Shown here: positions 5,248 through 27,200 of the stretch, piece by piece
Layout of the letters: each line of letters opens with the position of its first letter
Numbering within the stretch: the first letter of the stretch is position 1
Assembly (NCBI GenBank): GCA_964020085.1
Contig: OZ026601.1
Coordinates: 19,836,430-19,900,429 of the forward strand
Length of the DNA: 64,000 nt
Origin: Micromussa lordhowensis
Taxonomy: Eukaryota > Cnidaria > Anthozoa > Scleractinia > Lobophylliidae
Reading direction: 5' to 3'
The notes under the pieces: generated by a model
The model's input: the letters and a program-made list of their open reading frames with translations, nothing else
Told to the model about the DNA's origin: nothing
Database searches by the model: none
Made by a program: the position numbers and the translations under genes

Positions 5248-8200
5248 TTACATGTCCATTGGTTTACCAGTTGAGCTACTTGGGTGTTTTACAAGATCTT
5301 TAAACTTTCTCCTCATGCTGATTACAAACATGGAAAAGTTGTTTGTGCTGTTGAGTTTCTCCACCATCTCAGCAAGTCCCTCAACCTCTGGCATACAATC
5401 CTTCACTGTCAACATGAATTTCAAAAACAAATTAAAGCTCAATGAAAGTAAAATGTTAGCTAAAATCATTGACTAAACCACAGGAGCGCCAAACACTCTA
5501 TCAGCAGTAAAAATAAATGTTCTGTTATTTGCCTGTGTTTGGGTGTCTTTGTGAGTCATTCAGAAGGGATTTGAATGAAGTGAAGGCAGTTTACTCTTCC
5601 GAATATTATCTCGTCTGCCACTTTGTAATTATGACACTCCAATTACATCTCAAGTTTCAATCAACATTGTTAACTACTAACTCTCATCAGGGGAGGGATT
5701 CTGAGGTGGTAACAATGTTAACCAAAACTATGTAATTGGAGGTTCAAAGTAACAGAGCAGCAGACGAGATAATATTCGGAAATGTAAACCTCCTTTCCAT
5801 CATTCAAATCCCTCAAAAGACACAGGAACACAGGTAAATAACAGTACATTTATTTTTACTGCTGATAGTGTTTGGTTCCCTGCGACTAAACCACATGTTT
5901 CTGCAAGCCTGGCTAGAAAACATTTACAGCTGCTACTTCCAGTTTAGTTTCAATACTTTCCCCTCAACTTTTAAAGTTTATTTTTCACAGCATACATTTA
6001 CAGAGTGATATTTATCATGGGGGAATTAAGAGCTGATCGCTAATAGGCAACAATTTAAACAAGTATTGTTACATTATTCAAACAGATTCTCTCGCCCTTT
6101 ATGCAATAATATAATAAAAGGATAGGGAATTTGTTGAAATCAAGGGTGAATAAAGGTGAGTAAAGTCTGTATACGAGCCACTTGACCCTTCAGACTGGCG
6201 CTTATCTCAGGTTTCAGCTGGAGTAATAGGCTGTTGCAAAATTGTGCAGGGAAGTGGGGTGAGTTTCAAATTTTGACCAATCGATAAACTGACACCACCA
6301 CATGAAAGATCACATTAAGAGTAGTCATTTGATCAAGTTTGATGCTTTTAGATTGAATAGAGACCAAGTTTTAGACCCTGAAATATGGTTCACATTCCAT
6401 AGGAACCTATCGAGACTGTGTCCCCCAAAACCATATAGACGCTTAAAGTTTTGTATGATTTCTATAATACTATGTGATTTTCATCTCAGCTTCTTTCAAA
6501 TGGTACTTGAATGATGGGAGTTTACAGTTGTCATAAAACTGATAAAAAATTTTAGAGTTTATATGGTTTTGAGGTATGCTGTCTCAACATTAGAGATGTT
6601 TGTATGGATTTTGAACCATGTTTCAAGGTCCATAACTTGGTCTCTGTGTACCCTAAAAGCATCAAACTTGGTCAAATGACTACTCTCAACATGATCTTTC
6701 ATGTGGTGGTGTCAGTTTATAGATTGGTTAAAATTTGAAACTCGGCCCAGTTCCCTGCACAATTTTGGAATGGCCTATTCTACTCTCCTCTGGATGGAAT
6801 GTTAGTCCATCACAGGGTTAACCCCCAGAATTAGATTCCCCAGTACCCATTTATACACCTGGATGGATAAAGCATAAACATAAAAATTAATAGCACATTT
6901 GCATTACCATTATATTTGTCATGATTAGTAATGGCCACAGTGAAAACAAAAGGCTTCTCTTCATCCTTTGGATCTATATACTTGAACACAAACTGCAAAT
7001 GCTCCTCTGAGAAATGGAGAGACAAATCAATTTTAGGTAAGATGACAGTAGTGAGGGCTATAATTATTATGTATGACAAACATGCAGAGGAAATGGCCCC
7101 CAGGCAATTTTCTTTATGTACACTAGAGAATGATTGCTACATAAAAAAATTTCAGTCTGGCCTGACATTTTAGCCCAGTTAGGGGGGGGAGGGGCTGAGA
7201 TTTCAGAATGGAATTTAAATCCAGGGTCAAACTCTTTGTGTGATCACCTTCTTGATCTGCTGCTTCCACAGACATCATCTGGACTAACTCCAGATAAAGT
7301 CTGTGTTTAAGCTTAGTGGCCCATCAGGGCAGCACGTGAAGTGAAGCATGAAGTGACTAGTGATAACAGTATGCTTACTCCCTCATGGAAAGAATGCAAG
7401 TCCACTGCATGGGTATCCCAGGAATTTAATTGCTGGTTTCCATTCAAACTCCAGGCTCAGGTTGTTTGAAAGGTGGATAATGCTATCTACCAGCAAGGAT
7501 TTCATTAAGGGCTGGGCAAATTGGCATAATGGCAAAGGCAAAGGCCGGGCACCAGGCAAATTGACTGGCTGTGAGAACAATTTTGCCCACCTGGTTTGAT
7601 CATATAGACAAAAGTTTTTCTTATAAGGAAGTTCTGTTCAAAATGCTTTGTCCGCCTGTGAAATTAACTCGCAAAGCAGACTCTCAACCAGTAAAAAGGC
7701 TTACTACACAACCATTCGAACCTATACCTCACCCCTCCCCCCCCCTGACAGCTCCCTGCAGCCATTCCCTTCCACCATTTTCTTTTTTCTTCAAAGCAGA
7801 AAGCCAGTTATTACTGGTAGAGTAAAAGCAAATGTATAAAACAGGGCCTACCATCAACCTTCTTAAAGGATAATCCCAGCCTTTCTTTAAAGTACTCTGT
7901 CCCTTTGGTAAATTGTTTGATCCTGTAAGAGGTGCTCTGTTCCTTGGCAGAAATTTCTGACAAAGGTAAGATGAGTATTTTCTGATCAGGTTACAATTTA
8001 CCACAATGTCGTAAATTGACTACTCCTCCTAACCTACATAAGTTTACTATAAGCTTATATTTACCTTTCTGTTGTTTCTGCAATCGCCCTTCAGTTTGTT
8101 CGAAATGTTTTTGGTTCTGATTCTTTTTCTCCACCAAGCGTTGCGCTGTTATCTGTAGCTCTCGAAGCTCTTTTTCGAGATTTGCAACTTCCTCAGCCCT

Positions 8201-8626
8201 CTTTCGTAGCTCTAAAGAGTGAAAAGAAAACTCCGATCGCTCGAGGAATAACGTTAATGTTTTGTAAAGTGTACACAACAGATCGATCGTGTTTTTAAAG
8301 CCACATTTATATTTGTTACGTACCTTCCAAATTTTTCTCACTCTGAAGATGGTATTGATTAATCGTCTCCTCCAAATGCTTCATCTTCTCTTTGAGTTAG
8401 AAAAGGAGAAGATGGTTAAATTTAGATTGACAAAATTAAGGATCACAAACAAACAAGATTTCATAAGCTTACCTTTCTCTCCAGTCAACATGTTTTCATG
8501 GTTCTCTTTATCCTCCAGGCGCGCTTTTCGAAACGATTCCCCAGTCCATTCGTTGAGAAATTTCTCTTGTACCTTCTTTAAGTTTAGGCTTAAATTCTCC
8601 AGTTCTTCATTTGTCGTAGATCCCAT
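5248..8626 (-). CDS. SPC25: Kinetochore protein Spc25 (NDC80 complex)
   Basis: Six exons on the minus strand: 8473-8626, 8324-8389, 8065-8211, 7852-7956, 6908-7006 and 5248-5405. All borders are GT-AG and all phases agree, giving 242 aa (human is about 224). The N-terminal half is a heptad-rich coiled coil (ELRKRAEEVANLEKELREL). The C-terminal half is the RWD-type globular domain, with FVFKYIDPKDEEKPFVF and EGLAEMVEKLNSTNNFSMF recalling human Spc25. Spc25 pairs with Spc24 and anchors the NDC80 complex to the inner kinetochore. The start at 8626 (MGSTTNEE) is chosen over an upstream in-frame ATG at 8704 because family similarity begins here. Intron 5 (5406-6907) carries two foldback elements and a SINE piece. 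A second, broken exon 1 lies at about 17884-17985. Confidence 0.93.
5481..5882. mobile_element. Foldback MITE in SPC25 intron 5 (arms about 150 bp)
   Basis: The left half (about 5489-5650) reads as the reverse complement of the right half (about 5720-5875), for example cgaatattatctcgtctgc against gcagacgagataatattcgg. The ends begin CAGGAGCGCCAAACAC and, on the opposite strand, CAGGGAACCAAACAC. The sequence gactaaacca occurs on both flanks (5471-5480 and 5884-5893), a possible target-site duplication. CAGG ends are hAT-like, but the flanking repeat is not a clean 8-mer, so the superfamily is uncertain. Confidence 0.7.
6227..6777. mobile_element. About 550-bp foldback MITE in SPC25 intron 5
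   Basis: The two halves are imperfect inverted copies. The ends are taggctgttgcaaaattg and, reversed, taggccattccaaaattg. Shared inner blocks include the acatgaaagatcac and gatcaagtttgatgctttta regions. A related half-copy lies in a MIOS intron at about 50200-50360 (gcctaatggccattttggag, then toward gatccggtgcaattggtcat), so this is a dispersed family. Confidence 0.7.
6778..6872 (-). mobile_element. SINE fragment, reverse orientation
   Basis: On the minus strand this reads ccatccaggtgtataaatgg and then gggggttaaccctgtgatgg, the middle of the SINE family found complete at 19758, 32456 and 43797. Within SPC25 it lies in the sense orientation. The tRNA-like head is missing. Confidence 0.6.
7500..7680. 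repeat. Dispersed repeat shared with MIOS intron 10
   Basis: This stretch of SPC25 intron 4 (ccgggcaccaggcaaattga, tgcccacctggtttgatcat, gtttttcttataaggaagtt, gtccgcctgtgaaa) resembles 26460-26610 in block order and sequence. It is a transposon-derived repeat of unknown type. Confidence 0.5.
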
Positions 8627-8704
8627 TTTGATGCAGAAACAAGGAGAAATCTTGCGATGAAAAGAAGAAGTTTTTCCCGGTGATATTTCAATTTTTCCTT
8701 CCAA

Positions 8705-8734
8705 CCAATGAAGACGCCGGAATAGATCACGTGA
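8705..8734. promoter_or_regulatory. CCAAT box and TCACGTGA E-box in SPC25 promoter (copy A)
   Basis: CCAAT at 8705-8709 and palindromic TCACGTGA at 8727-8734 lie between the divergent first exons. Copy B keeps both motifs with identical 22-bp start-to-start spacing (18067 and 18089). TCACGTGA is the core of the CLEAR/E-box element bound by TFEB/MITF/USF-type factors. The binding proteins here are inferred. Confidence 0.5.
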
Positions 8735-8946
8735 TATAAAGAAACCGCTGAACCACCTTACTCAGTTTCACCTTCCACCTACCCTCACTTCCCCTCACTT
8801 GAGACCTCACTTTCTATTCCGGCTGCTAGACATTTTATAGACCTTCGTTGACTTAAACTTGTTATTTTTCCCGTAAACAAGACGTGGATGACTTTAATTG
8901 TACCCATATGACACAGCCAGCTTCATTTTTCTGACGAATGTCCAAA

Positions 8947-9087
8947 ATGAGCAAGGGAAAGTGGCGAGTGTTGTGGTCTCTAAAGCAGCACCGCAGGACA
9001 AGTTCATCATTTGTGGCATCAAATATATTCCCCAGGAGATATGTCTGTACAAAGTCATCAGATCACAGCAGAACCATCTGATCGCAG
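8947..9087 (+). pseudogene. Decayed duplicate of MIOS exon 1
   Basis: Similar to the working MIOS exon 1 at 18299-18400, with ATG at 8947 and MSKGKWRVLWS in frame. A frameshift follows, so the conserved QDKFIICG and ICLYKV blocks fall in another frame. Small insertions are present. The splice-donor position that reads cag|gtaatatgg in copy B reads cag|ggaatatgg here, so the donor GT is lost. The ATG frame ends at a TGA before 9087. I call it a dead exon; it could still be transcribed from the SPC25 promoter region. Confidence 0.85.
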
Positions 9088-9155
9088 GGAATATGGAAAA
9101 TGAATTGTTTTAAAAAAGCTATGGAGTACCAGTAGTGATTCACTTCCTTTGGCTA

Positions 9156-9660
9156 GTAGTACTGCAATGTGGAATGGAGGAATGCCGGAACGCCAGAAAA
9201 CTTAAACCCGGAACGCCGAAATACTAAAACCAGGAATACAAAATTGCTAAACCCGGAAACTATGCATAAAAAATCCTAAACGGCAGATTCATAATCTTTA
9301 GTTTTTTTGACTCTCTTGTAGCTAGCTGAGTTCTCTTGAGACCTCCGACCAAAGTCCTTGGTGTGACAATTTCAACAAATTGTCCTACGTAGACTAATAG
9401 ACTAACAATAAAAGTACCAAGATCTGTTACCTTCACTATAATGCATAAAAGGTTTTCTCTCTCAGATTAAGCTCCAAACAAATTAATCGGATTACAAACG
9501 AAACGAACGTGTTGTTGATTTATTAGAGGCGGAGGCAAAGACTTTACAGCTGTTTTGTACGCCATATTTTCGCGAGAGACAATCGTACCCAGAGCTTCCA
9601 GATCCATCTCGCGCGGCTTAGAATTGGAAACAGAGAACACAATTATTTTTTATCAGATAA
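9156..9660. other. Spacer with no recognised feature
   Basis: Non-coding DNA between promoter copy A and the first Penelope fragment. A short degenerate motif (ccggaacgccg and aaacccggaa) repeats near 9185-9260. Nothing else was recognised. Confidence 0.4.
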
Positions 9661-9713
9661 TCTGGTTTTATCAACTGAGTTGATACTGTGAATTGGCCAC
9701 CGTAAAGAGGTTC

Positions 9714-9749
<36 letters not shown>

Positions 9750-10348
9750 GCGAATCGAGGAATTGTGGGTTGTGTGTGGTTTATATACAGAAAGATGGAG
9801 CTACGCTATTGGTTGATGCATGGTAACGTGAAAAACAACCGAATAAGTTAGTTGAATGAAAAGCGTTTGTTGATACCGTAAGTGCGGATTTAAAAAATGA
9901 AATTTTGTTCTAGGGTTTTGCGGCTTTACGTGCTTCCTTGATGTAGGGAAAGGCCGCAGACTGCCATATGTTGCTTAGTTTCTACAGAAACGCTGGGTGG
10001 TTAGAGCAGCAGGCTCAAGTAAAAACAGTCGCGCAAAAGTCGTACTAGTCGATGGCCAGTTCCAGCTTATCCTTCAAATACGTTGTTGCTGAGCTCGTTC
10101 AAGTGGAGGTGAATTATTGTGTTTCTGGAAATGTGCATTCGTGGTTCTGTTTAGATGTTTGACAATAGTGTCATTCGTCACGAACTCAATGAAGCTGGAG
10201 TAGCGGAAGGCTGTACAACTCGATGTAATTTCGAACGACTACGTTTGAACACAAACTATTTATTTTAATTTAATTTTCAGAATGTCCCCATATTAGTAAG
10301 GGAGAGTTCTCCCTGGCTAGGCGGTCTTTTTTTGACATTTGAATAAAG

Positions 10349-10386
<38 letters not shown>

Positions 10387-10610
10387 GATTGGGGAGATTC
10401 AAGTGTCTCGCGACCGGTTTAGATACGTTTTTGTCGTCTTTCTCTGTGTCACGAAGGTGTTCTCTGAATCGGTCGCCTAGTCGTCTCCCTGTTTGCAAAG
10501 AGTGCAAGTTATGCAGTAGATGACATTGGCTGAGGTACAGGTGAAATCCATTACCTGCTGATAGCTTTAGAAGATAAAGAATGAATGCTATACCGAGTAA
10601 TTGCATTGTG
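9660..10610 (-). mobile_element. Penelope-like element, 5'-truncated 3' portion
   Basis: The minus-strand frame at 10277-10606 contains GRRLGDRFREHLRD and VSKPVARHLNLPNHS, the C-terminal part of the GIY-YIG endonuclease of Penelope-like elements. The upstream zinc-knuckle-like NVIYCITCTLCK block is in another frame and the YIGE core is deleted, so the enzyme is dead. A tgat microsatellite (about 10351-10386) interrupts the end of the domain. Downstream (9690-9790) is a non-coding region (aaagctgacgttttgagcgt and gcccttcgtcagagcg) of the type that flanks such elements. Outer boundaries are approximate. Confidence 0.65.
10351..10386. repeat. (TGAT)n microsatellite
   Basis: About nine copies of a tgat/ttga tetranucleotide. 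They lie in frame with the dead endonuclease fragment, where they read SINQSINQSIN on the minus strand. Confidence 0.85.
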
Positions 10611-10895
10611 ACTAAACTTGATAGACAACAAATGCAAGGAAACGATGTTATGAGATTGTTATATTTCGATATAAATCTATATCATCTTCGGACTAGGCGG
10701 GATACAGGTAGCAGAGATTTAAATACTGCGAGATTGTACAACAGCATTACCACGTGAAAATGAAAAACAAACGAAACTGTCAAGAGAATAGGCGGAGTTC
10801 CCTACTGGCTTTTAAGCCATTGTTCAGAAATGGTGTTGAACGCTTGATATGATAAGCTTCTTTATATAGTAATAGATTCCAATTATCATCGCGGT

Positions 10896-11615
10896 CTATA
10901 TGTTTGTGTTATCACGTACGGTTTGGGTGAGAAATTCTTTGTTCATTACAGTAGAAGGTGAAATGTTCTCATTAGTGAAAATATCCGGTAAGTTGTATAA
11001 ATCTTGTATGTGTTTGATATTATCACAATCGTGCAGATGTTTATATATAGCGCTTTCTTTGTCCGTAAGTGCATGTTCTTGTATTCGGACAAGCAATATT
11101 CTGTTCGTTTTGCCGATGTACGAGGAATTACAACCAGGGCAGATGAATTCATAAACAACGTTTGATTGGCTTAATTGCGGCGTTTTGTCCTTAGTGCTTG
11201 TGAAGAAACACAATTTTGTGGTCTTTTCTTTTATTCGGATGTTAACATTGGGATCGACGAGACATCTCCGAAGCTTACGTTTAAGCTTCTTGACCAGTTG
11301 CGATGTTAGGTCACCGACGAATGGGATGGTAAGCCAGATAGTGGGATGCTGGTTGTTGTGGGAGGTGTCGTTGGCCGGATGAACTGAAGCCCTATTCTGC
11401 GCATTTGTTGTAAAGCGATGAATTAATAGGTTAGCAACACGTTTAGGAAAACCATTCCATGATAAAAACTTCCTAATCAGCTTGACCTCAGTTTTAATTT
11501 TGTTAGGAGTACAGATACGGTTAACGCGGTCAATCAGTGCTCTGACCCAAGAGATTTTGTGTCGCCAAGGTACAAAGCTGTCAAAATTAGTGTACTGTCC
11601 AGTAAAAGTATCTTT
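10896..11615 (-). pseudogene. Penelope-like GIY-YIG endonuclease portion (3' part of an inverted element)
   Basis: The minus-strand frame reads from TFTGQYTNFDSFVPW, just after the reverse transcriptase core, through a linker to a GIY-YIG-type endonuclease: YEFICPGCNSSYIGKT, then RIQEH. The frame is open to a stop at 10896. The open frame extends further toward 11906, but that part is antisense to the reverse transcriptase at 11616-12212 and is not protein sequence of the element. With that segment it forms one element with an internal inversion. Confidence 0.75.
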
Positions 11616-12212
11616 CTCTATCCACTCACACTGAATGAGTTCACATTGAAGGACACTTTCGACGCAGCAAATAGAATCCAAGCAATACCTCCAGCTTTGT
11701 TCGCCGAAGGTTATGAATTTGTCTCTTTTGATGTGGAATCTCTCTTTACGAATGTTCCTCTCCAGCGTACACTGAAAATTATTATAGATCGAATCTACAA
11801 TAAAAAGCTTGTCAAAACCAAACTTAAGAAATCTACACTTCGCAAACTCATCCGCGACACGTGCACGAAAACCGTCTTTTCCTGCAACAATAAGCTGTAT
11901 GAACAAACTGATGGTGTTAGCATGGGTGGATCACTTGGTCCAGTGCTGGCAAACATTATCATGACAGAATTTGAACATGAAACTATAAACAACCTCATCA
12001 GTCAGGGTCTAATTGCCTTCTATTGCAGATACGTAGATTACACGCTCCTTCTCATCAAACGCAACACAATCAACACTATTTTGGATCACTTTCACAAATT
12101 TGATAGAAATATCCGCTTTACTTTCGATTTATTCGAAAATAGCATTCCTCACTTTCTGGACATCAACATCGCTAGAGATGGCCTTGGCATCTATAGAAAA
12201 GATCCTTTTACT
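11616..12212 (+). pseudogene. Penelope-like reverse transcriptase portion (inverted 5' part)
   Basis: The plus-strand frame contains RT palm motifs: FVSFDVESLFTNVPL (first catalytic Asp), DGVSMGGSLGPVLANI, and YVDYTLL where the family has YVDD. The second catalytic Asp is replaced by Tyr (codon 12039-12041), so the enzyme would be inactive. Similarity stops at IYRKDPFT (12212), the same point where the opposite-strand endonuclease segment begins (KDTFTGQ). The N-terminal half of the protein is missing. The open frame starts at 11559, but its first residues are antisense to the neighbouring segment. Confidence 0.78.
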
Positions 12213-12217
12213 TGTTC

Positions 12218-12244
12218 GGAATGCACTTCTCAGAAGTGCATTCC
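12218..12244. repeat. Perfect 13-bp-arm palindrome at the Penelope break
   Basis: ggaatgcacttct (12218-12230), one central base, then its exact reverse complement (12232-12244). It begins 5 bp after the last recognisable Penelope residue. It could be a foldback formed at the repair junction. Confidence 0.7.
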
Positions 12245-12565
12245 AAACAGTGCATTACCAATGTTTTTGTCGCGTTCGAAAAGATTCTACCAGCATCGTT
12301 TAATTTTTTTAGAATGATGGATTTTACTGCGTGGTTGTGAGGGTGAATGGAATTCTATCATTATTCTCCTTGTGTCCCGTTTGTAGTGCTGACTGGCGAT
12401 CAATTTGTTGGGCGCGATAATGGCCCGCTTGAACAACAGGAGCAGGATAGCCACGTTTGTCGAAAAAATCGCACATTTCCTCTGATTTTAAGGAAAAATC
12501 AGAGTCATCACAACAAAGGCGACGAAGCCTAAGAAACTGAGAATAAGTGATAGTAATAGGACAAA

Positions 12566-12750
12566 ATGTATTTACATTCGGCGGAGCTAAACGTAGTGGC
12601 AGTGACAGAGAATGTAAATACTTTCCTATTGGTATGAACGCACGTGAGCCGCTATGGCGTTAATTGACTCTATTGTTATGAGGTATATAAGGTTTTGACA
12701 GTTGTAATGTAATCGTAATGTATTCTCAGCTCTCGAACTATCAACTTTTA
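12566..12750 (+). repeat. Split direct repeat A1 of a PAT/Ngaro-type element
   Basis: Starts atgtatttacattcggcgga and ends near ctctcgaactatcaacttt. It matches 14872-15045 with only small differences. It marks the 5' end of the DIRS-order element at 12566-15345. Confidence 0.8.
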
Positions 12751-13283
12751 AAATGTCGTCCGATGCTGATCTCGGCAGTATGAAGCGGAATTTGCATGAG
12801 ATTTCCCTCTCTATTTTTCAACTAGTAAATGGTATTGATTTGCAGGTGGACTGGATTCCTAGGTCTCTCAATGAGCACGCGGATGCCATAAGTAGGATCG
12901 TTGATTTTCACGACTGGGGTGTTTCGTTTGAATTTTTCCACCATGTAGACAACATTCCGTAGATCGTTTTGTTCATTCCCAAAACCGCAAATTACCCAAA
13001 TTCTTTTCCCGTTTCTGGAACCCTGACTCGGAGGGGGTGGATGCCTTTTTGTTTTGACTGGGCGGGGGAGAATAACTGGCTCGTTCCCCCAGTGTCCCTT
13101 GTTCCTCGGGTTATTAGGTCTATGGGCACTCTTATTGTGGGTCTCAGCTCCTCTTTGGTCCCCATTCTCCCTTTTCCGTCTGCGTTAAAGAGACCATTGT
13201 TTTTACCAATGTTTCTAATATTTTTGTTCCGGGCTCTACAGAGTCGATTTTTGATGGCCCTAAATTTAAGTCTCATGTATTAG
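12751..13283 (+). pseudogene. RT/RNase H C-terminal remnant of the DIRS-order element
   Basis: An open frame starting at 12753 encodes VDWIPRSLNEHADAISRIVD, typical of the end of the RNase H domain in DIRS elements. A second frame (12969-13281) carries MPFCFDWAGENNWLVPP and PRVIRSMGTLIV, the conserved post-RNase H region. The two are separated by a frameshift and stops. Confidence 0.7.
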
Positions 13284-13299
13284 CCGTCCGTTTGTCGGC

Positions 13300-13790
13300 T
13301 TGTTAGATTTGTGCTTCTAGGCTTAGTTTCCTTTCCACAGTTACGTGTAGTTACCCTGTTTAACCTACATTAAAGTGTGTTTTTTTATTTTGAGTGATTT
13401 GTTCTGTTTTTCTTTTGCCTCGGTGGCATTTATGCGGGTCTCGGTGACCTTGTTTGTACCTTCACTGATCCCGACAGGTCGTACCGTTACATTCTTGCGC
13501 GACCTCGGTCAGTTTTTAATCCTCCCAGGTTCTTCATATATATGGTCGCGTGCGCCTCGGTGGCGGTGTTCCATAACCCTTTTTTTTCCCCTTTCAACCT
13601 CTCTTTAAACTTACCAAAATTTCACTTAAATTCACGTGTACCCCCGCCTTAAGTACCTGTTATAGTGGTATCTTCATATTACGCGCTTTTCCTTTTATCG
13701 TTCCTTTTTTCTCGTGCATCTTTCCTTTTTTTATGTTTAAGTCCTTACATTGAATCCATATGGTGTTCTATTTCTTTTGTACTTTCAGAT
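13300..13790. other. Interior DIRS spacer with a block shared, inverted, with the 17044 MITE
   Basis: No conserved coding sequence. Around 13558-13640 (tttcaacctctctttaaact and on) the sequence matches, in reverse, 17225-17320 in the separate MITE at 17044-17807. The direction of transfer is unclear. Confidence 0.5.
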
Positions 13791-13805
13791 GTTTTCGCGA
13801 GCCCT

Positions 13806-14790
13806 ATGTGGGCTGAGCTTAACGATGTCAAAGCTCCCTCCCTACGCTGCTTAGCGGAAAAGCTGCCGGAGATAGTCCTTGGTTACAGGGCAGATTCCAC
13901 TACTCTCACTTACCTCAACGGTTTTAAGCGATAGCGTGCTTGGGCTAACAGATTTCCCGAGGTCACAGTGCTGCCTGCCACTCCGGCTTATGTTTCTTTA
14001 TACCTGCTCAGTATTCTCCAGGCTTCTAGTTCTCCTGCGCCGGTCCCTTCTACAGCATTCACTGGGCTCATGATATTGCTGGTTTCGACTCTCCTACCAA
14101 TCATACACTTCCCCAGAAGGTCCTGGAGTCCGCTATAAGAGAAGGCTATCACACTTTACTTCCTAAAAGCTCCCCATTACACCCGAAAGTTTATAAAAGT
14201 TGTTTCAGAGTCTCGATGGATCTTTGGTGGACACAAGATTCATGGCCATGGCGTTATTGGCCTTTGCGGGGTTCTTTAGATTTCATGAATTGGCTAATCT
14301 GAAACTTAGCTCTGCATGACACTCATTTTGAACTTGTTATAGAAAGCAGTAGAACTGATCAATATCGTGAGAGCGCTATTGTCCCCATTGTCAAGTCGAT
14401 CTGGTACAGATCTTTGCCCCCTAGGGTAATTTAGAGAAGTATTTATCGCAAGCCAAACTCACGTTTCCGACATCTTCCCAAGGTGGGGACGACTATTTGT
14501 TCGGCAATATTCAAACAAAGTCTGGCTCTCAGTTCATCCACCCAGGCTCCAAACTTTCTTATACAAGATGCAGAGAAGTTCTATTGAAGAAGATTGCGGA
14601 CGCAGGCTTAAATCCTAAGTCTTACTCTTGGCACAGCTTCAGAAGTGGCGGTGCATCTGCCGCCGCGAATGGTGGTATTTCCGATAGAATAATAAGCGCC
14701 ACGGTAGATGGCGTTCGGAAAACGCTAAGGATTCGATTCGATTTGCAGATTCGTTAGAGAGCCGATTAGCGGTCTCTATGTCTCTTGGAC
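13806..14790 (+). pseudogene. Tyrosine recombinase pseudogene of the DIRS-order element
   Basis: Similarity to DIRS/Ngaro recombinases runs in pieces across three frames: LRCLAEKLPEIVLGYR, then LHDTHFELVIESSRTDQYRE, then SYTRCREVLLKKIADAGL and WHSFRSGGASAAANGG with the HxxR box. Several stops occur. Just after the HxxR box an apparent single-base deletion (near 14696) shifts the frame, so the last conserved block and the nucleophile region are out of frame. It is not functional. Confidence 0.75.
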
Positions 14791-14819
14791 TGTAATTTTT
14801 TCCCGTTCTTTGTTTTCTC

Positions 14820-14870
14820 AGTTCGAGCTGCACACCCATTCCCGTCTCTTAGTCGTGAATATAAATAGGA
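14820..14870 (+). repeat. Split direct repeat B1
   Basis: agttcgagctgcacacccat and the following 31 bases recur at 15294-15344, directly before A2 here and at the element end there. Confidence 0.8.
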
Positions 14871-14871
14871 A

Positions 14872-15045
14872 ATGTATTTACATTCGGCGGAGCTAAACGT
14901 AGTAGTGACAGAGAATGTAAATACTTTCCTATTGGTATGAACGCACGTGAGCCGCTATGGCGTTAATTGACTCTATTGTTATGAGGTATATAAGGTTTTG
15001 ACAGTTGTAATGTATTCATCTCAGCTCTCGAACTATCAACTTTTA
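14872..15045 (+). repeat. Split direct repeat A2
   Basis: Matches A1 at 12566-12750. Sequence continues from 15046 to 15293 without a partner in A1, consistent with A1 having been shortened by the internal deletion. Confidence 0.8.
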
Positions 15046-15293
15046 TTTTTATATCTTACTTTATTCTTCTATCGATTGATTTTTTACCTTTAACCCCCAG
15101 AGGTTGTGCGAATGCATCGGTTGGGGAATACGTTCCCAATTTTTGCCCATTGGGTTTTTGGGTTTTCGTATCGGGTGGCGCACGTGAATAGTTAGCCTGA
15201 GTGGCTTTATGTAGGGATATTTATATATTATTCTTTAGTTATGATGTTGAACTTTGTATGATATTTGGACGGCATTAAACACTCAGGCTCCTT

Positions 15294-15345
15294 AGTTCGA
15301 GCTGCACACCCATTCCCGTCTCTTAGTCGTGAATATAAATAGGAA
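15294..15345 (+). repeat. Split direct repeat B2, 3' end of DIRS-order element
   Basis: Second copy of B1. Similarity ends with ataaatagga at about 15345. Confidence 0.78.
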
Positions 15346-16130
15346 GTACAGTCCAATTCGTCCTGTAATCGTACAAGTGATAACAAAATCAGACGACTGC
15401 ACAGCGGGAGTTCGATTTCTTTATCACGAGTATGATTACAGAAAAAAATTGGACGACACGAAGTGTTATCACTAATTAATCATAAAAAATGGTAAAAACA
15501 CTTCTAATCACGGCTTGAAAATTCACACAGATTTCATTTTCAACATTTTATACATGTCTGTTTTAAATTTTGGGGAACAAAAAGAACTAAGGGGCACGCC
15601 CAAACCCCCGGCCCCTTCCCTTGCTACGACATTGGGCTGTAGTAGCTGTAGTTAGTCTTCCATTTACCATTTACCATTTATTTATTCATTCTTTTACAGA
15701 TCTATTTACAGAAAGGGCATGCCCGCAACTAGCAAAGGCTAATCTGGGCGGGCCATGCCTTAATAAGCAAATTACAAAAGAAAAAAATATACAAACAAAA
15801 ATTTGATTTTGCTGCTGGAGAAGAGAGTCTTCGCAGGCACATACTGTTGTAATCTCAGAAGCTCAGGCCACTGACTGCAGAGACTGAGTCAAACACTGAT
15901 TGTAAGCCAACACATTTTAAAGACGTCAAGCTCCTCTGCAAATTTGCCAGTTGCAAAGCCAGCGGCGGCGAGCTGAATCAGTGTAGACGTCTAACTAGGT
16001 AATCCTGGATGGGATAACTGACAACGATATATGAAAGATCATATATTTGAACTGCGGAGAAAGATATGAAAACATCATTGATCATCGCAGTTATACACAC
16101 AACTTAAGCAGCATGTGAAATTAAAAATAA
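15346..16130. other. Repeat debris between DIRS element and tRNA-like sequence
   Basis: Inverted ends gtccaattcgtcctgtaatc (about 15351) and, reversed, near 15430-15455 suggest a small foldback element. At 15655-15790 a minus-strand tail with repeated aaatggt units looks like a LINE 3' end. No gene was recognised. Confidence 0.4.
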
Positions 16131-16135
16131 ATTCC

Positions 16136-16207
16136 GGCCTGAACGGGATTCGAACCCATGACCTCTGCGGTACCGGTGCAGTGCTCTACCAACTGAGCTA
16201 TCAAGTC
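16136..16207 (-). mobile_element. tRNA-like sequence (SINE head or tRNA pseudogene)
   Basis: On the minus strand a 72-nt tRNA-like fold can be traced: D-arm tagctcagttggtagagc, an anticodon arm around ctgcaccggtaccgcag, and T-arm tgggttcgaatccc. The acceptor stem has two mismatches and no clean anticodon stem forms. A-box and B-box promoter elements are present. I read it as a tRNA-derived SINE head rather than a working tRNA gene. The plus-strand frame across it is not a protein gene. Confidence 0.6.
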
Positions 16208-16575
16208 AACTGCATTCTTCACCTTCTAGGGTATATTGCGAACTCACAATGTGACCAGTTCCCAGTTGGCTTGATAGCTCGTTATGTACCCATTATGTAC
16301 CTAAACCTAATGTTAAAATGCTTAGTGGCCGTTACCAGGAACAACATTTTTGACACCTCAAAATCCTCGAACACATGGTCATCTTTTTACGAAGCTGTCC
16401 GCAACCTTAGGGTTTAGTCTAAAAGTTATTTTTCGTGTGTTAGAATCACCTCACTATTATAGCCATACCTTGTAGTTTAATCTAATCTTTCTTCTTCTTT
16501 TTTCTCTTTTTTTCTGAATTTTACTTGTCTATTATTTGTTTTACAATAACTACCGCGCTAATTCGCTAATTTTCA

Positions 16576-16682
16576 TTTCCAACAAGTGGACAGACGCATG
16601 AATTTGTAATGCATGCGATGTTCACACGATGCGATGTTATTGTAAGAAACAAATTGACGTCAGTTTTTCATGCGTCTGTCCT
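16576..16682. mobile_element. Short MITE with ggacagacgcatga ends
   Basis: The left end ggacagacgcatga is the reverse complement of tcatgcgtctgtcc at the right end. About 107 bp long and non-coding. Confidence 0.55.
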
Positions 16683-17043
16683 GTTATTGACAATGTATTT
16701 CGTCATAACATTGTCAAAGTAGTCTACGGATCCACTCGGCGTTACACCGTAGATCCACTGTAATTTCTCGGCAAATTAGCATACTCTGTCGCTAGACCTT
16801 GCCAGTGGCGTAATCAGCTTCACCAATCCAAGTTTGAATAAAGTTACGTACGTATGTATGGACGGTCTGTATGCTGTGTTTTAAACTATTAAAAACTTCC
16901 AGTCTGGCTGAAAAACCACACATGAAACAACAATGTAAAACCCAATTTACCACAACAGGTAATTTTGTTTTTCCCGTACAGTTTCACCGCCTTTTTAAAA
17001 CCTGTTCGTCAAAAATACCATAAAATTACAACTCAAGTAGCTC

Positions 17044-17807
17044 AGGCCTGATTACATGAGCCGGGCTGGCCCGTTTAGCCGGGCTGGTGTTAGTTTGCCG
17101 GGATCTCGGCACGTTTGTTAAACGCAACAAAAATCAACTCCGCGATTACATGACAACCGGGCCAGCCCGGTTAGCCGAGATCCCGGGATCGCCGTGCCGG
17201 GATCCCGGCTTACCGCGCTAAGATTTTTCCATGTAATCGCGTTTGGGTAAACGTGAATTTAAGTGAAATTTTGGTAAGTTTAAAGAGAGGTTGAAAGGTA
17301 AAAAAAAGGGTTATGGAGCACCACCAGACAGTTGCCCGACCGCACAATGGCACCCCAGGTTGTTGGGCAACTGTTTGAGTGTATCTACCAATTTTTAATT
17401 TCAAACTCTAATTTTAAAACAACAACAAATCTTCAAAATTTCCTATTTCCATCAATTTTACTAATCCTTTGAGAAAAACTATTTCTCTCCAAATATACCT
17501 AAAAATCACCAAAAAACTTACTAAACAACCCAAAACATAGATATGTGAGACGAGCAGAGAGATTCTTGATTGCTTGAAACGTAAACAAGATATTTGCATT
17601 AAAAACATAATACCCAGCCAAAATACGGCTTTCATGTTTCCCCCCCGCCTTAAGCCGATGAGAGTACAAAATCAAGCTCGCTCCGGTTTTTCCCACGGTT
17701 CATCGCATCAGCCATCAACCGATCAACCGAGCTGGCTCGCCTCATGTAATGCCGGCCTGAAAGTCATCTCGGCACACCGAGGCAGCCCGGCTCATCTAAT
17801 CAGGCCC
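17044..17807. mobile_element. MITE with ends ggcctgattacatgagccgg
   Basis: The left end ggcctgattacatgagccgg matches, inverted, ccggctcatctaatcaggcc at the right end (about 17787-17807). Subterminal GC-rich repeats of gccgggatcccgg occur near 17100-17210. The interior shares an inverted block with 13558-13640. Open frames here have no family similarity. It abuts promoter copy B. Confidence 0.65.
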
Positions 17808-17883
17808 ACAAAAATTCTTTCCTCCGGAAATGGCCATAAAAAACATTTTTCGTTCAAGAGTTGGTTTTGTTTGTTAATCCTCC

Positions 17884-17985
17884 AGAGGCGCGCTTTTGAA
17901 AGAGATTCCACAGTCCATTCGTTGAGAAATTCTTTTTGTGCTCTCTTCAAGTTTAGGTCCAGATTCTCCAATTTTTCCTTTGATC
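17884..17985 (-). pseudogene. Decayed duplicate of SPC25 exon 1
   Basis: On the minus strand EKLENLDLNLKRAQKEFLNE matches the working exon's ELENLSLNLKKVQEKFLNE. The region holding the ATG in copy A (atgggatctacgac) is replaced here by tctagatcaaagg, so no start codon remains. The splice-donor region of copy A (8460-8475) has no counterpart, because the duplication stops inside the exon. No further SPC25 exons follow, so it cannot make protein. Confidence 0.82.
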
Positions 17986-18066
17986 TAGAAACAGGGAGAA
18001 ATCTTCCCGAGAAAATCTTGCGATGAAAGAGGTTTTTCGCGGTGTTATTTCAATTTTTCCTTTCAA

Positions 18067-18096
18067 CCAATAAAGACGCTCGAGTAAGTCACGTGA
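18067..18096. promoter_or_regulatory. CCAAT box and GTCACGTGAT element in MIOS promoter (copy B)
   Basis: CCAAT at 18067 and GTCACGTGAT at 18088-18097, about 200 bp upstream of the MIOS ATG, with the same spacing as in copy A. The second motif resembles the CLEAR element (GTCACGTGAC) through which TFEB/MITF factors drive lysosomal and nutrient-sensing genes. That fits a GATOR2 gene, but regulation is inferred. Confidence 0.5.
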
Positions 18097-18298
18097 TATA
18101 AAGAAACCGCTGGACCATCTCCGTTCACTTCTTAGCTCACCTGACCTCCGACTTCACTTTCTTTTCCGGCTTTTGGAGACTTTTATAGTCCTTCGATGAC
18201 ATAAAACAGTAGTTATTTTTCCCTTGAACGAGACATGGATAACTTTATTTGTACCCATATGACACAGCTAGCTTCATATTTCTGACGAACTGTCCAAA

Positions 18299-21200
18299 AT
18301 GAGCACGGGAAAGTGGCAAGTGTTGTGGTCTCCAAACCAACAGGACAAGTTTATTACTTATGGCAACGAAATATGTCTGTACAAAGTCACCAGATCGCAG
18401 GTAATATGGCAAATGATTTAAAAAAAAAAACGGAATACCACACTTAGTAGTTGTGATTCACTTCCTTTAACTTTGGCACCTTACGTTAGGCAAGATGTGT
18501 CTAGACGGAACCAACAAAAATGTGGGGAGGGGATGGTGGGTATGACAGGTCATAGATCAATTTGAACATAAGTGGCGATCAATAGCCCAATTTCGATATA
18601 TTAAAATTCAGCCTAAAACAATAGACCTCAGCACGAGGCTCGTGGGAATAAACCCCACAAACTCTGTAGTTATTCCCACGAGCCTCGTGCTGAGGTCTAT
18701 TGTTTTAGGCTGAATTTTAATATATCGAAATTGGGCTATTCCTATCTTTTGCATGCTACATCTGTGTAAAGCACATGAGAATTCCGAACTTGATCACCCT
18801 TTTAAAAGAGTATTGACTTTAAATAAATTGATCTCCCAAGAACAATATAATTTAAAAAGTAAGTCTTATCTGTACAAGCACTTGACAGGCCTCCACCAAC
18901 CTGAAGCATTGTAAGTATTAACCCATTGACTACCAGAGCTTTTTTCCAAAAACACCTTTTTGGACATTTGGGAGATTTTCAGCCAGGATATGAGCCAAAT
19001 TACCTCCAATCTACTCAAAAAGGCATTTGCAACATGATAGCATGCCTTTCTTTCCACCAGCACCAGAAATCAACATTTGGAAATTTGAAAAGTTTGTGGA
19101 TGAGAAAGTGACCTAGGTCTTTAGGCTTTTCAGGTTTTCGTAAAAAAAAATTTTGCCTTTCCTTTTTCTCGTATTCTTATCTTTTTGCGACAGTTACTGA
19201 CCTTCTACTGAGCTTGCTTCCAGTTCAAAAATTTCAGAGAAAGCATCATCAAGACAGACAATTTTTACCATGGAGTAGCCAAGTTCTCTTTTTTCACTCA
19301 AAAACCATACTGGATAGGAATCCATCCATTTCACAAAAAAATACACATGTAGTCACGGCAATCATTCTTGCTAAAGGATGACCAGGAGATAACACAAGAA
19401 CACAGTGTGGTCTGATAAACAAGTGCCAGGCCCCTATCGGGCAAATCATAAACAGTGTCCAGTCTCTTTTTTGTAGAATTATGTTCTACAAACCCATTCA
19501 ATGGAATGGAAGGTCACTGAAAATTCTGAGGGGGGTGGAGGGATCTCAAAAGCCAAATCACCGGTACATAATCGGAAGTATGAAGCAGTGGGGAGGGTCA
19601 AACCCAAAAGTGGAGGAGGTATGGATACAAGTATTCTGGAACAACACAATTGACTAGTTTGTGTTTGTGCTTTACAGGAAAGTCCTCCAAAGGCTGCCGG
19701 CGGAAGAAGTCAAGGTATTGGTCTGTGCCTTTAGTGAATCCTACTCCTTTTGACTATGGGAGGCGCGGTGGCCTTATGGTTAGTGCGCTTGACTCCGGAG
19801 CGAGCGCTCCAGTTCGAGCCCTGGCATGGGACATTGTGTTGTATTCTTAGGCAAGACACTTTACTCTCACAGTGCCTCTCTCCACCCAGGTGTATAAATG
19901 AGTCCCCGCAAATTTAATGCTGGTGGTAACCCTGCGATGGACTAGCATCCCATCCAGGGGGGATTAGATATATTCCTAGTTGCTTCATGCTACTGAAACC
20001 GAGATAAGCTCCGGCCTGATGAGCCACTAGGCTTGTATGCAGACTTTACCTTTACCCTACTCCTTTTGACTGACAATAGCATGGCAGTGCAGATGTAGAA
20101 AATGAAAAGCATTATTTTGTGATATGGAAATTAACTATGTGCACAAAACAGTAAAACATGGTTTATCTCTAACATTTTAAACCCATAAAACATGGTGTTT
20201 TGATCAAGTAGAATGCATGCATTTTCTAGTGTTTGTTATATCTGCTATACAATATATTTTTTTGTGTGTGTTTTTTTTTGTGTGTGTTTTGTTTTGATAG
20301 TGATTCAGCTTTCTGATGATACTTACGCATCACTTTTGTCTGTCATGGCTGATATACAATATCTAAAGGTAACTTATACAAAGCATAGAAGCAAAGGTGA
20401 TACAATTCATGTAATCTTTCAAGCACTTGTCTAACCACGCAAGCACGCACACCCACAACCCTGGACAGAACTAGTTGAGAAGAAATTGGAAAAAAAAAAC
20501 CACCATCGTTTTCCTGTTATACAAACTGAAATTCAAAATGGTGTTGAATTAATTGTAGTTATCCCTTTCCCTTTTACACTGTTGTTTTGGTTAATACTGT
20601 GTTGTATAGACATGTTGATTTTTAGACCAAAACAATGTTAAATGGGGTTGGTGGGGTCCAACTTTGGTGTAGTTTGATCACATTTTATAAATTAAATAAC
20701 TGAGCTACTATGCACGCTCTCATTGGTCAATAGGTTTGTTTAGATGAGAGTATGTAACACTGTTGTGACATTTTAGATTTGCGCATATTTTTGAGAATTA
20801 TTTCATAATAGCAATAGAGCACTTTTTCCATGTTTATGAAGCCTCCTCTAAACACTCGGGGGAGGGGAGGGGGAGAATTCTTGAAAGTTATGCAAACCTT
20901 CGACTGTGTCTTGGGTTTGCATAACTGTCTCCAATTCTCCCAACCCTCCTTGTGTTTAGATGAGGCTATGTAAACACAGAAAAAGTGCTCCATTGCTTGA
21001 ACAGTACTGTGTACAATCGATTGTAGCTTTTTAACCCTCTTACCCTTAGTTAGAGCTCCTTAGTAATGCTACTCATATTTTTTTTAATATAGTGTGTTGC
21101 ATGGTACCCAAAATCTGAACCAGAGAACTTGTTAGCTGTTGGACAAGCAAATGGCAGAGTTCTTGTTACATGGTAAGAATATGCCATAGGTTGTGCCTTT

Positions 21201-24200
21201 AACCTACAGAGCTTTTATTTTTTCTCTTCTGATAGGATATTCTTACTACCAGATATCATGTTCGGCATACACTGGTGTAGAACAATGTATAATCTACCGC
21301 ATCTTGAAAATGTTTTGGCAAGTTGTGTGGTACAATGAAACCTGTATTGATGCAATGTGAGCCTTGCCTTTTTCCTATAATTTTTGTTAACAATGGTGTT
21401 AAGAAGATTCCTATATGATAGAGTGACTGGGAAAGATACACTGGTTATGGCATTGTATTCAGGAAGTTTGCATTTTGAACACTGTTTCTAAAACAATTAT
21501 TATATTGAAGTCTGGGATAAAATAATAAAGGATTATACTGGTTGGGATTTTAGAATGTGGCCATTGGCTGTATGAATAGGAAATCCCAAAATTTGAGATC
21601 ACAATTTTATTTATTTTCAGCATTGGAAATGAAAACAGTCAAGCAAACTTTGGACTTGCAAGAGAATTTGGTAAGAATCAACAACTCATAAATGTTTACA
21701 GACACTGAAAGAATAAAGTTATCAGTTAAAATGAAATATGATGTTGACATAAAATGAAACAAATATTTTAATTATTTTAATTTCTAAAGTTCCAAGGCAT
21801 TCACGGCAATGTAACAGTCTTGCATGGAATCCTGTTGAGAGCAATTTGGTAAGTACAATCTTTAGAACTCCAGTTATATAATTATGAAAATAATGGTAAT
21901 TGGACAGAGTAAAGTACAACATAGGAGAACTTTTAGTTTCATAATCAGACAAGCATGCAGCATGAGGGCATTTTGAAATTATTAGCATGATTACTCTCTG
22001 AATTGTACAACACAAAATTAAATTACTAATATATAAATAACAAATTTCGAGACTAAAAAAAGGCTTTTGAGAACTTCGTTTGAGTAAAAAGGTCAGTAGC
22101 ACTGTCTGTAAGTTTCAAAAACTGTAGGAAATACCATGAAGGAAGCCAATACAGCACAGGTAATTGACATGCAAATGGCGTAGGTATCCAATTGCAGGGA
22201 TCAAATTATAAAAAGTTATGATAAGATACCTGTAATTGGACTTGATCAGGCACATGGAGAACCAATCATGATCTTGAGAATTTTTTGTAGATACGATTAT
22301 TGAATAAATGATACACATAATCTTGAACCTGGAATAATAACTATATTTTTAACAGTTTATTGGGGGGAGTGCCGTCCAGTTCTCTGGGACATGTAGATTT
22401 TCCTGCTAGGCAAGTAACTTTACTTTCTCACTTGCCAGATGGACAAAGGCTCGGGCAAGTCATGAGCATGAAAAGTTATTTGTCAAATGAGGAAATGATC
22501 AGTAATTATGTCGAAGAAAATCACTCCGATAGAAATTGTCAGGTGACTGTCGGCCAACTGTTAGCAGACAAATAACCAACAGACTACTGATAGGTCACAG
22601 AAGGCCAATATAAAAATGTGACTGTATATCATAGCAATAAAACCAACGCTTAATGCACTAAAACATTTCAGCCAGTCAAAGTCCAAGTGATTGACAACCT
22701 ATGCAAATTGCATGACGTTGCTTGTGATGGAGTATTGGCATGGTAATGACATGTTAATTGATTTTTAGCCAATGGGAGGAGAAACAGGGAAGTCAGTTTC
22801 TCAACAGAAGTCCGTAGATCCTCTATTTTTGTCTTTCCCCAGCTCCACCCCACCTGTGTTCATATCCCTTACAGTGAATATTTTGCTTGACATCTGTATG
22901 AACTTGAGATAGATTCCATGGACAGACTAGGAGTGAAGAAAGGTTTTATTTCTTCTCAGCTGGCAGCTGGACTTGACAAAGTTAGGAATGATGTTTCTCT
23001 TCTTGTTTGGGACATTAATGTTCAACTCAGTGAGTAAACTTACCATTTAATCTAACTTACGCTGAAGGACTTAAGGGATTACAAGCAGTACAACTTGTCA
23101 ATTTGATTTCATGTACTGTAGGTTGATAAGTCAACTAATCCACATGGCATTATCATTTTATTAAGTAAATAATACATGTTGTCAAAATCACAAGTTTGAG
23201 AGCATACATTTTCTTGAGCATGTTTTTATCGGCGAAAGAAATGTCAAGGTTACCTACATTACAATCTTGGACAAAATAAATGGAACATCTGGACCACCCC
23301 TCCTCCCATTTCAATGATGCCAAAATGGCGCGTTTTTTGCTCCTTCCTGCCTTCATCATTGCTTTGGAGGGGAAGGGGGCTAATTGAACATTCCTTTTTA
23401 TTCTGTCCAAGATTGTAGCTCTCATGCAATGTCTAGTTACAATTGATGACGAGCGTTTCTTACGGAGGAAAATTGAAGTGGAAACCGTGAAACTGAGTAT
23501 TTTTCCATGAGAAAATAGTATTTTGAGGGAAAGTGTGTGCTAATATAGGTATCTGTTTTCTGCAAATAATTAGCTTCCATAAAGTATTTATTAAATCAAG
23601 GTCATTATACACAGTCATACATGCACACATCAGATAATAAGTGTATGTCTCCCATTTGGATTATTTTGTTATCAGGTGTTAGAGACAGTTCAATTCAAGA
23701 AAAAAGGTTGGTGTACAACTGTCCAACTTTGTTTCCATTGTTAAAACAGGTTCTGATCAGTGTTTTTCCTGTCATTGATTAATCAGGCCATGTCAGATAG
23801 ATCAGATAATTTGTAGTACAATGTATATGAACAATCAGTTAAAGCCATAGTCAAGTTTATATAATGTTTTTAACCAGATGATAAGTCGCTTGACACTTGC
23901 CAAAGATGTACTTGCTGGAATGAGAGTTTACCAAATATATTTTTCTAGGTTCCATTTCTTGTTCACATAATATGTCGAATTATTTTTGCATTTTGATTGG
24001 TTCTTACTTTTGAAAGAGTAGGACAGATGCATGGGTTATGTGTTTGTTTGTTTGTTATATAAAACAAACAGTAATAGATCACAGATGACATCAAAAATGT
24101 GCTAAGACCATGGGCAACACACTCGCCTAATGGCTTGTGTGCCACTTTATTGTTCGTACTACATTTTGATGTCATCTGTGATCTATTCCTGAACAGATGC

Positions 24201-27200
24201 ATGGTGGACTGAAACAAGTTGAAAGTGACCAAACTAGCTGTCAGTAAGTGCAAAAAAAGCTGAATAACAGCTCATAAAGAACATTTATTTTTTGACGGAT
24301 TGTTTCCACTGAAATTTGATGAAATATTCCATTGAATCTAAACTAATTTAGCCTAAAAGAATAACTCTTGATACCTATTGTGAAGTGTTTTAATGTACAG
24401 TTTCCTTTCACATCCTTAATGTAGACATTCTGGAGTGACTGGTGGTAAACAGTCTCCCATCACTGTAGGAACAGGCTTTCAGGACCCGTCCACTGTAGGA
24501 AACAGACCTCTTGCAGAACTTTGTAAGCTGCTGTCATCTATGCTCAACTTGTTCACTGAACATTGCTTATGGTATAACTGTATTTGCTAGTTCTAAGACA
24601 TTGGAATCTAAATGGCCAACACTAAACATTAAATATGTTGTCTAATATTACAAATTTTAAGCGTAATTCAAACTAACTTGACATTGATCAAAACAGCGAA
24701 ATGTTGAAATGAAATCGCAAGTAATGCAATTAAACTAAATCTCTTTCAGTTTTTCAGCATTATTTTGGATCTTGAAACCTTGGAAAGTTTGAACTTCCTA
24801 CTTGTACCACTCTGATAATTACAGTTCAGCTTTATAACTTTAGGGTTGGAGACCGAATGACCTTCCATAAGCTGGGCATGGATAAAGTCTGAAACTGCAC
24901 AATATCCTGTTAACTCTAGTACTGTTTTCTTGTGTTTTATCCTCTGCTGATTGAAAAGCATGTAATTATGTTTTAAAGTTGATCGATTTTCAGTGAATGC
25001 AGTGTACATCAATTGTACATCAAGCCTCTGGATTTGCTGTACCATGATCTGCTAATTCTAGTTTGTTTGCCTGCAGCTACTTCAGACCCAACTCTTTCCC
25101 TGGCATGGTCACCTAATGATCATAACAAATTAATTACTGGCCAGGCACAGAAGTTTCTGAGGGTGTTTGACATAAGAAGTGAGTACAGTACATCTGTTAC
25201 TGATTTCACCTAAACCTGATCATGACACTATACTTGCATGCAGAGTTGACATACCATATTCTTACTAATTTTCATGTGTACCAGATGTTCCAATTTTTGT
25301 ATTTTGGGAAATGTTTTTGATGAAAAGAGAATTATCTCCTAAGTGCCTTGTGGACAGTTATGGTACAAGAAGCTTTTCTTTTGCCTTGCTGAAATTGTGG
25401 AACTCAATACCAGAAGATAGGTTTAAAACTAAACTGAAGACTTACTTTTTTAAAAACGTTTTTACTTGATGAATTAGTGTGTTACTTTTCTTAAGTAATT
25501 GGGTAGTTATTTTAGTTAGTTATTTGTTCTATTTCATTTAGTTAATTGTTTGCTGTCAGGCACATTGAGTTGAGAAATGCGGCCTATAAAAATGTAAATG
25601 TTGTTATAATAATTGTTATCATTAAAATTACCACATGTATGAATTTTTCCCAGATAATTATCAAAATCTTGGATTGGTCTTTATTTACACTATTTAATGT
25701 ATCAGCATAATTTGACTTAAATTTAATTGTTTACCAAGCTACATGTACCAGTGACTGAAAAACATCTCTTCAATTATCAAAATTGGGGATTTGTTTTTTG
25801 CCTGTCTGTGTACGTGGTTACTGTAAAAAGTATTATGTTTCCAGCCACATCTGTTATAGCATTATATTTCTTAAAAAGCTACATGTAAATTGAGTATCTA
25901 TGTAATGGTAGACAAACATCCTTGTGACAAAGTGAATTATCTGTGTTTCACAACTGAAGTTTGAAAATGTGTTGAAAATGTTGCCCCCTCCCTCACTGTT
26001 GTAACTCAGGAGAAGTTGCAGGTACAGTGTAGAAGTGTTCACAATTGCAGTATGTTGGGGTGGGTGGAGGGGCTGGGCATGTATTGTTGCATGCAAGTGT
26101 TAGTTCGTTCTGTCTGTAAAAGCACCAAAAGTGCAAATTTGCCCCAAGACTTTTGTCCATGATGTTTAAAGTGTCTACTTTTTTTTGTAGACACCACTGG
26201 CCCTCACAATGCAGCTGTTACAAAAGCAGTCTATGGTGTGTGTGTTGACCCGCATGATGGACACAGAATTGCCTCATTTGCAGAAGTAATTTAGAACAGT
26301 CCCAATTCTTGTAATAATTATATTATAATAATAACTCAAAGATTGCAAAAGATCACTTTTTATTTCTGAACATTTCCCAATATTATTGGAAGGTTTGCGA
26401 GCACTGTGGAAAATTCTCCAAAGATAAGTTGTATTTGAAGGACAATAGTAGGGCATTCCAAGGGGTTTCATTAACAGCCGAGCACCGGGAAAATTTGAAC
26501 GGTTGTGAGGATGATTTTACTTGCCTGGTTTGACTATCTAGAGGAATGTTTTTCTTATATTAGAAGTTCAGTTCAATCAGTCTTGCCTGCCTGTGAAAAC
26601 CAGTTGCCCTCCTGCTGGAACTATTATCAGACCCCTGATCATTCCCATCACGCAAGTAGACAATGAATGTCTTATCCAAAGGCAGTAACTAGTTTTTTTT
26701 AGTGTCCTGTTGAAATATGTAACAGTAATCTCATGACTTTTCTTGTACAACTTAGAATAAACAACACCAACCTACCTAAATGCACTCAATATCGTGATTT
26801 TGATTACTGTCTTGTACAAATTTAGTGTGTATGAACTGTACATGTACATTATATGTTATAGTAATTAAAATTTAAATCTTTCTTTGCCACAGGGTCCCCC
26901 TGGTGTTATGTGTATCTGGGATGACCGAAATTTTGAAAAACCAGTATCCTTTTTTCATGGTCTACTTGAAATTATAATAATAAAATTAGTCACTGAGGTG
27001 TTCACCAAATACATTTATCTTTACTCATTACATGGCTTAGTGAACTGTGTTAATAAAAATAAATGGGGTGGGTCAAATTATGCAGAATTATCATAAAGAA
27101 GTTGAAAAGTACAGTAATTGTGAAGAAGAGCTCCCCGAAAAACCTGTCGGTCAACTGTTGACCAACAGAGTACCGACAGGTTACCAACAGGCTACCAACA

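Follow-up and report, generated by a model that had tools for sequence, protein, structure and literature searches.

The 64,000-nucleotide stretch of the stony coral Micromussa lordhowensis analyzed here (the window; contig OZ026601.1, positions 19,836,430 to 19,900,429 of the forward strand) carries SPC25, a kinetochore gene, on the minus strand (start at 8626, extent down to about 5302), and MIOS, whose product belongs to the GATOR2 complex that regulates mTORC1, on the plus strand from 18299 to about 50730. The first exons of the two genes and the spacer between them are present twice, in the same orientation, and each of the two copies (A and B) holds one intact and one defective first exon. 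The intact start codons of SPC25 and MIOS now lie about 9.7 kb apart. The window is without Ns and sits on C7, one of the 1,383 contigs of the 581-Mb assembly that was searched. Its principal features are as follows:

5302..8626, minus strand: SPC25 coding region; exon 1 is 8626-8473, within copy A
18299..50730, plus strand: MIOS coding region; exon 1 is 18299-18400, intact, donor GTAATA
8505..9155: copy A of the unit, comprising SPC25 exon 1 minus its last ~33 nt, the spacer, a MIOS exon 1 relic, and ~70 nt of MIOS intron 1
17873..18475: copy B of the unit, in the same orientation (blastn and global alignment)
8627..8946: copy A spacer, 320 bp between start codons
17990..18298: copy B spacer, about 308 bp with an approximate left end; today it lies upstream of MIOS alone
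8947..9087, plus strand: MIOS exon 1 relic of copy A, 141 nt, stop at 9079, donor GT changed to GG
17873..17989, minus strand: SPC25 exon 1 relic of copy B, without an ATG, with a 2-nt frameshift near its inner edge, and with the last ~33 nt and the donor absent
9156..17872: interval between the copies, 8,718 bp, much of it repeats

Both genes were located by tblastn, using human proteins as queries, and by splice-aware models. The models were edited by hand, and their extents are set by homology, without placed stop codons. Two spurious 5′ exons were removed from the SPC25 model, and an exon near 8211-8065 was added from the list of open reading frames (ORFs). The identities of the genes are demonstrated by their domains: The SPC25 model contains the Spc25 C-terminal domain (Spindle_Spc25, PF08234; Pfam E = 3.5e-22) and has PDB matches to Spc25, and the MIOS model contains the expected WD40 (MIOS_WD40, PF21720; E = 3.6e-93), alpha-solenoid (MIOS_a-sol, PF21719; E = 2.5e-51), and zinc ribbon (zinc_ribbon_16, PF17034; E = 5.4e-21) domains, the latter run leaving out exon 37466-37547 and its neighbors (67 residues). 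The first MIOS model held doubtful exons, and 18780-18809 was removed by hand before the genome was searched with the first 443 residues. No second MIOS locus appeared among the 51 matches of that search; all matches elsewhere in the genome include part of query residues 401-427, an overlap that we attribute to a repeat wrongly included in the model as exon 37466-37547.

An earlier note on this DNA had described 8508-9155 and 17876-18475 as copies of one unit separated by about 8.7 kb, and had advised aligning the two segments. Their alignment confirms the duplication, with a local score of 312.5 against a maximum of 24 among 300 mononucleotide shuffles, and the measured interval agrees with the note. 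When 8505-9155 is globally aligned with 17873-18475, 485 of the 568 ungapped columns are identical and 83 differ (Kimura two-parameter distance, 0.164), with 118 gap columns in 20 runs; blastn joins 8507-9026 to 17874-18374 at 78.9% identity over 535 columns (E = 4e-88) and adds a 30-nt block at 93%. Searching the whole assembly with the unit gave copy A itself and copy B, and no third match. The edges of the unit are demonstrated as well: We found no homology past the left edge (score 15, reached by 16 of 200 shuffles) or past the right edge (score 12.5, reached by 71 of 200), and a blastn comparison of the flanks with the window yielded no convincing match.

In both copies the order is SPC25 exon 1, spacer, MIOS exon 1, head to head. 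Bidirectional promoters are usually recognized by opposite strands and 5′ ends less than 1 kb from each other; the distances given here (320 bp in copy A, about 308 bp in copy B) are those between start codons. Because both copies show this order, it predates the duplication, and no outgroup is needed to establish it. A pattern search for outgroup DNA gave no matches in viral contigs and 17 matching stretches in genome contigs, none of them a relative.

Copy A retains an intact SPC25 exon 1, with its ATG at 8626 on the minus strand and the donor GTAAGC after 8473. The MIOS exon 1 of this copy is broken: It measures 141 nt versus 102 nt in copy B, with insertions of 5, 15, and 19 nt; from the ATG at 8947 it runs for 44 codons to a stop at 9079; and its donor position reads CAG followed by GGAATA. 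The insertions are derived in copy A, since the copy B exon is colinear with residues 1-30 of human MIOS (40% identity). A search for a replacement donor for this relic between 8947 and 9650 gave a single GT scoring above 4, a weak site at 9134 (5.2); the scoring matrix was built from 22 donors (18 chosen of 33 in the MIOS model and four of SPC25), which themselves score 5.8-12.4. An extra in-frame ATG also lies nine bases upstream of the broken MIOS ATG (8938-8947), where copy B has ACTG.

Copy B shows the opposite pattern. Its MIOS exon 1 (18299-18400, followed by GTAATA) is intact, and its SPC25 exon 1 has no ATG in the related frame, with similarity in that frame still comparable over 30 codons. 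The earlier note had recognized the intact exon of each copy, the frameshift and missing donor of MIOS in copy A, and the missing start codon of SPC25 in copy B; to these the alignment adds the truncation and the 2-nt frameshift of the copy B relic. The left homology edge of copy B falls inside SPC25 exon 1, and the 67 bp flanking that edge score only 8 against the corresponding sequence of copy A, a value equaled or exceeded by 187 of 500 shuffles. Had these bases been homologous, a score of 8 or lower would have been rare: With divergence set to 14.6, 20, and 30%, it arose in 0, 0.1, and 3% of cases (1000 simulations). The only donors found for the relic on the minus strand, at 17522 (9.2) and 17510 (7.0), both lie within a nested repeat (17245-17653). 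With its edge inside the exon, copy B was probably left with a truncated SPC25 exon by the duplication breakpoint itself, and not by decay. In that case copy B would have had no SPC25 donor from the outset, and SPC25 would have been limited to copy A.

The spacer was presumably the shared promoter of the ancestral pair, and SPC25 now appears to start from copy A and MIOS from copy B. Using consensus motifs, we found in the copy A spacer a CCAAT (8705), an E-box (TCACGTGA, 8727), and two TATAAA matches (8735, plus strand; 8839, minus strand), all of which are also present in copy B; the E-box and the plus-strand TATAAA fall inside a 24-nt run identical between the copies. Matches restricted to one copy are few: Copy A alone has CCGGAA at 8717 and TCAGTT at 8762, and copy B alone has a longer ETS match (18170) and, within the exon relic, a CCAAT (17968). 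A sorting of motifs by direction was sought in both spacers and is not clearly seen. Between the copies, 38 of 298 spacer columns differ, compared with 45 of 270 in the exon and intron parts (P = 0.19). A post hoc subset (core and MIOS 5′ side, 21/180, versus SPC25 exon and MIOS intron, 32/160; P = 0.04) is not to be relied on and uses region boundaries off by a few bases, whereas the comparison of 38/298 with 45/270 uses the correct ones.

Across the 63 indel-free codons of the two exons (33 of MIOS and 30 of SPC25), the copies show 12 synonymous and 19 non-synonymous differences. The ratio of non-synonymous to synonymous rates (dN/dS) is 0.34, with a bootstrap interval of 0.14-1.01 that omits failed replicates. 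Taken separately, MIOS gives 0.44 and SPC25 0.29, both with wide intervals.

The interval between the copies holds the following elements, where each genome repeat search scored its 40 best candidates, so that the percentages given refer to the best-matching relatives:

about 9157-9295: repeat, relatives at 71-86%
9655-9978: repeat, relatives at 89-91%, continuing at 10383-10547 (75-85%)
10544-10900: repeat, relatives mostly at 97-100%, adjoining a reverse transcriptase (RT) ORF at 11466-12314
12302-12553: repeat, relatives at 89-92%
12564-15360: element with split direct repeats (12596-12714 and 14899-15017 at 97%; 14817-14886 and 15291-15360 at 89%)
16134-16208, minus strand: tRNA-Thr(GGT)-like gene
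17045-17806: foldback element ending 67 bp from the left edge of copy B, with the nested repeat 17245-17653 (relatives at 96-98%)

Matches to the first of these repeats mostly start between 9148 and 9187, near the right edge of copy A. The RT ORF, which we take to be Penelope-like, matches RVT_1 (Pfam E = 2.9e-09); the other two of the three ORFs tried gave nothing. The element at 12564-15360 is presumably DIRS/Ngaro-like, and its end (14868-15345) has ten relatives at 92-96% and others lower. Judged by identity to the nearest relative, which is a rough clock only, the repeats with relatives at 92-100% appear to be younger than the duplication, whose two copies are 85% identical. Elsewhere in the window, Rfam reports a further tRNA at 36711-36784 that ARAGORN does not; a foldback in MIOS intron 1 (18581-18740) has 71-nt arms that are 100% complementary, with a similar stretch at 51676-51838; and an ORF at 62796-63272 resembles a LINE endonuclease by eye.

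The history that best accounts for these features, to which we give a probability of about 0.8, is a tandem duplication that tied SPC25 to copy A, after which MIOS settled on copy B and transposons separated the copies; the tandem mechanism, the order of events, and the age of the duplication are what we infer from the sequence. SPC25 and MIOS would originally have stood head to head with start codons about 320 bp apart. A tandem duplication of ~600 bp, with one end inside SPC25 exon 1 and the other ~70 bp into MIOS intron 1, would have produced the arrangement SPC25, copy A, copy B, MIOS. From the start SPC25 would have been usable from copy A alone, the copy B exon having no splice donor, and MIOS, free to use either exon, would have come to rely on that of copy B, which lay closer. 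Since SPC25 already depended on copy A, no other step would have been needed for separation. The MIOS exon in copy A would afterwards have gained its frame-shifting insertions and lost its donor, and transposable-element insertions, several of them later, would have driven the copies 8.7 kb apart. The earlier note had proposed just such a duplication of the first-exon and promoter segment of a head-to-head pair whose genes were then separated, and this remains the best reading, the order being seen in both copies. It had also spoken of reciprocal decay, which stands for the MIOS side of copy A; the SPC25 side of copy B is cut at the edge and had probably been defective ever since the duplication. 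The simplest reading would thus be one truncation and one decay.

Several observations weigh against this history. Copy B might have been truncated only later, by deletion or replacement; the simulations of the flank score presume that the 67 bp beside the copy B edge are original. The dN/dS of 0.34 is compatible with each exon having had one lineage under constraint and one free, but also with other histories, and is not proof. At two MIOS residues, the broken copy A (I, C) is nearer to human (V, C) than the intact copy B (T, Y); at another, copy A has L, and copy B and human have P. Finally, the repeats with relatives at 71-92%, one of which starts beside the right edge of copy A, may be as old as the duplication.

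Among the alternatives to a tandem duplication with one truncated exon, strict subfunctionalization of the promoter, in which two complete and bidirectionally active copies each lost the elements for one direction, would explain the complementary outcome at the exon level and the one-copy motifs (CCGGAA and TCAGTT in copy A, the longer ETS match in copy B). The earlier note had placed the subfunctionalization at the level of the promoter, which the data do not show: The CCAAT, the E-box, and both TATAAA matches are kept in both copies, the spacers overall are as divergent as the remainder of the unit, and the copy B SPC25 exon seems cut at the duplication edge. We consider this explanation improbable. 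Slightly less probable again is that a transposable element, or an ectopic template switch, copied the segment and relocated it. The interval is rich in repeats, repeat matches start near the right edge of copy A, and a foldback ends close to the left edge of copy B, but the copies share orientation and locus, their edges are compatible with one tandem event, and the genome search found no further copies.

Two alleles or haplotypes placed end to end by the assembly would likewise give copies in tandem arrangement. Such an artefact is very unlikely: The 83 differences in 568 ungapped columns, together with the 118 gap columns, are far beyond usual allelic divergence, the unit matches the assembly twice, the genome search found no second N-terminal half of MIOS, and there are no Ns in the window.

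In the duplication-degeneration-complementation (DDC) model, two copies undergo complementary losses and both are then needed. The coral copies likewise show complementary losses, and both now appear to be needed. Each copy keeps one part at the exon level only, as one intact first exon. Unlike in DDC, where both copies are complete at birth and degenerate later, the copy B SPC25 exon stops at the duplication edge, so that one loss was probably present from birth, and the unit consists of a promoter and two first exons. Duplicated first exons and alternative promoters are similar in that a partial duplication adds 5′ exons to an existing gene body; the coral case differs in that it involves two genes on opposite strands and its surplus exons are broken.

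The loss of bidirectional promoters is a trend that has been described before. According to the amphioxus genome study, such promoters serve 25% of neighboring protein-coding genes in amphioxus; the CAGE-based figures are 12.83% for mouse and 7.84% for zebrafish, and disentanglement is suggested to have followed each vertebrate whole-genome duplication (PMC6292497). The coral locus resembles this disentanglement in that a head-to-head pair loses its presumably shared promoter following duplication, but the event is local, with about 600 bp and no complete gene copied, and leaves its intermediate visible (cf. PMC6292497). As in NPEPPS-TBC1D3, a partial duplication containing a promoter alters how a neighbor is driven; in that case, described in a preprint, the product is a fusion transcript, whereas the coral genes keep their own exons and become uncoupled (PMC12871316). 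The literature that we searched, mostly listings and the beginnings of abstracts, contained no description of a gene pair split through duplication of its bidirectional promoter, and our search returned nothing on SPC25 with MIOS in coral.

The SPC25-MIOS locus is a local version of promoter disentanglement with its intermediate preserved, and it is a clean and useful example in which the observation is confirmed and the interpretation partly supported. If the proposed history is true, a breakpoint inside a first exon ties that gene to one copy at once, one further loss separates the pair, and the gap between the copies subsequently fills with transposons. Small tandem duplications of a shared promoter and two first exons could conceivably be a general route by which head-to-head pairs are uncoupled, a generalization that we hold as tentative and rather doubtful. 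In any genome one could search for the signature of such an event: a spacer duplicated together with two first exons, of which one is truncated. Here the genes uncoupled are a kinetochore gene and a GATOR2 gene, and the visible intermediate shows how uncoupling can occur at a single locus with neither gene ever left without a promoter: a simple way for two genes sharing one switch to separate.

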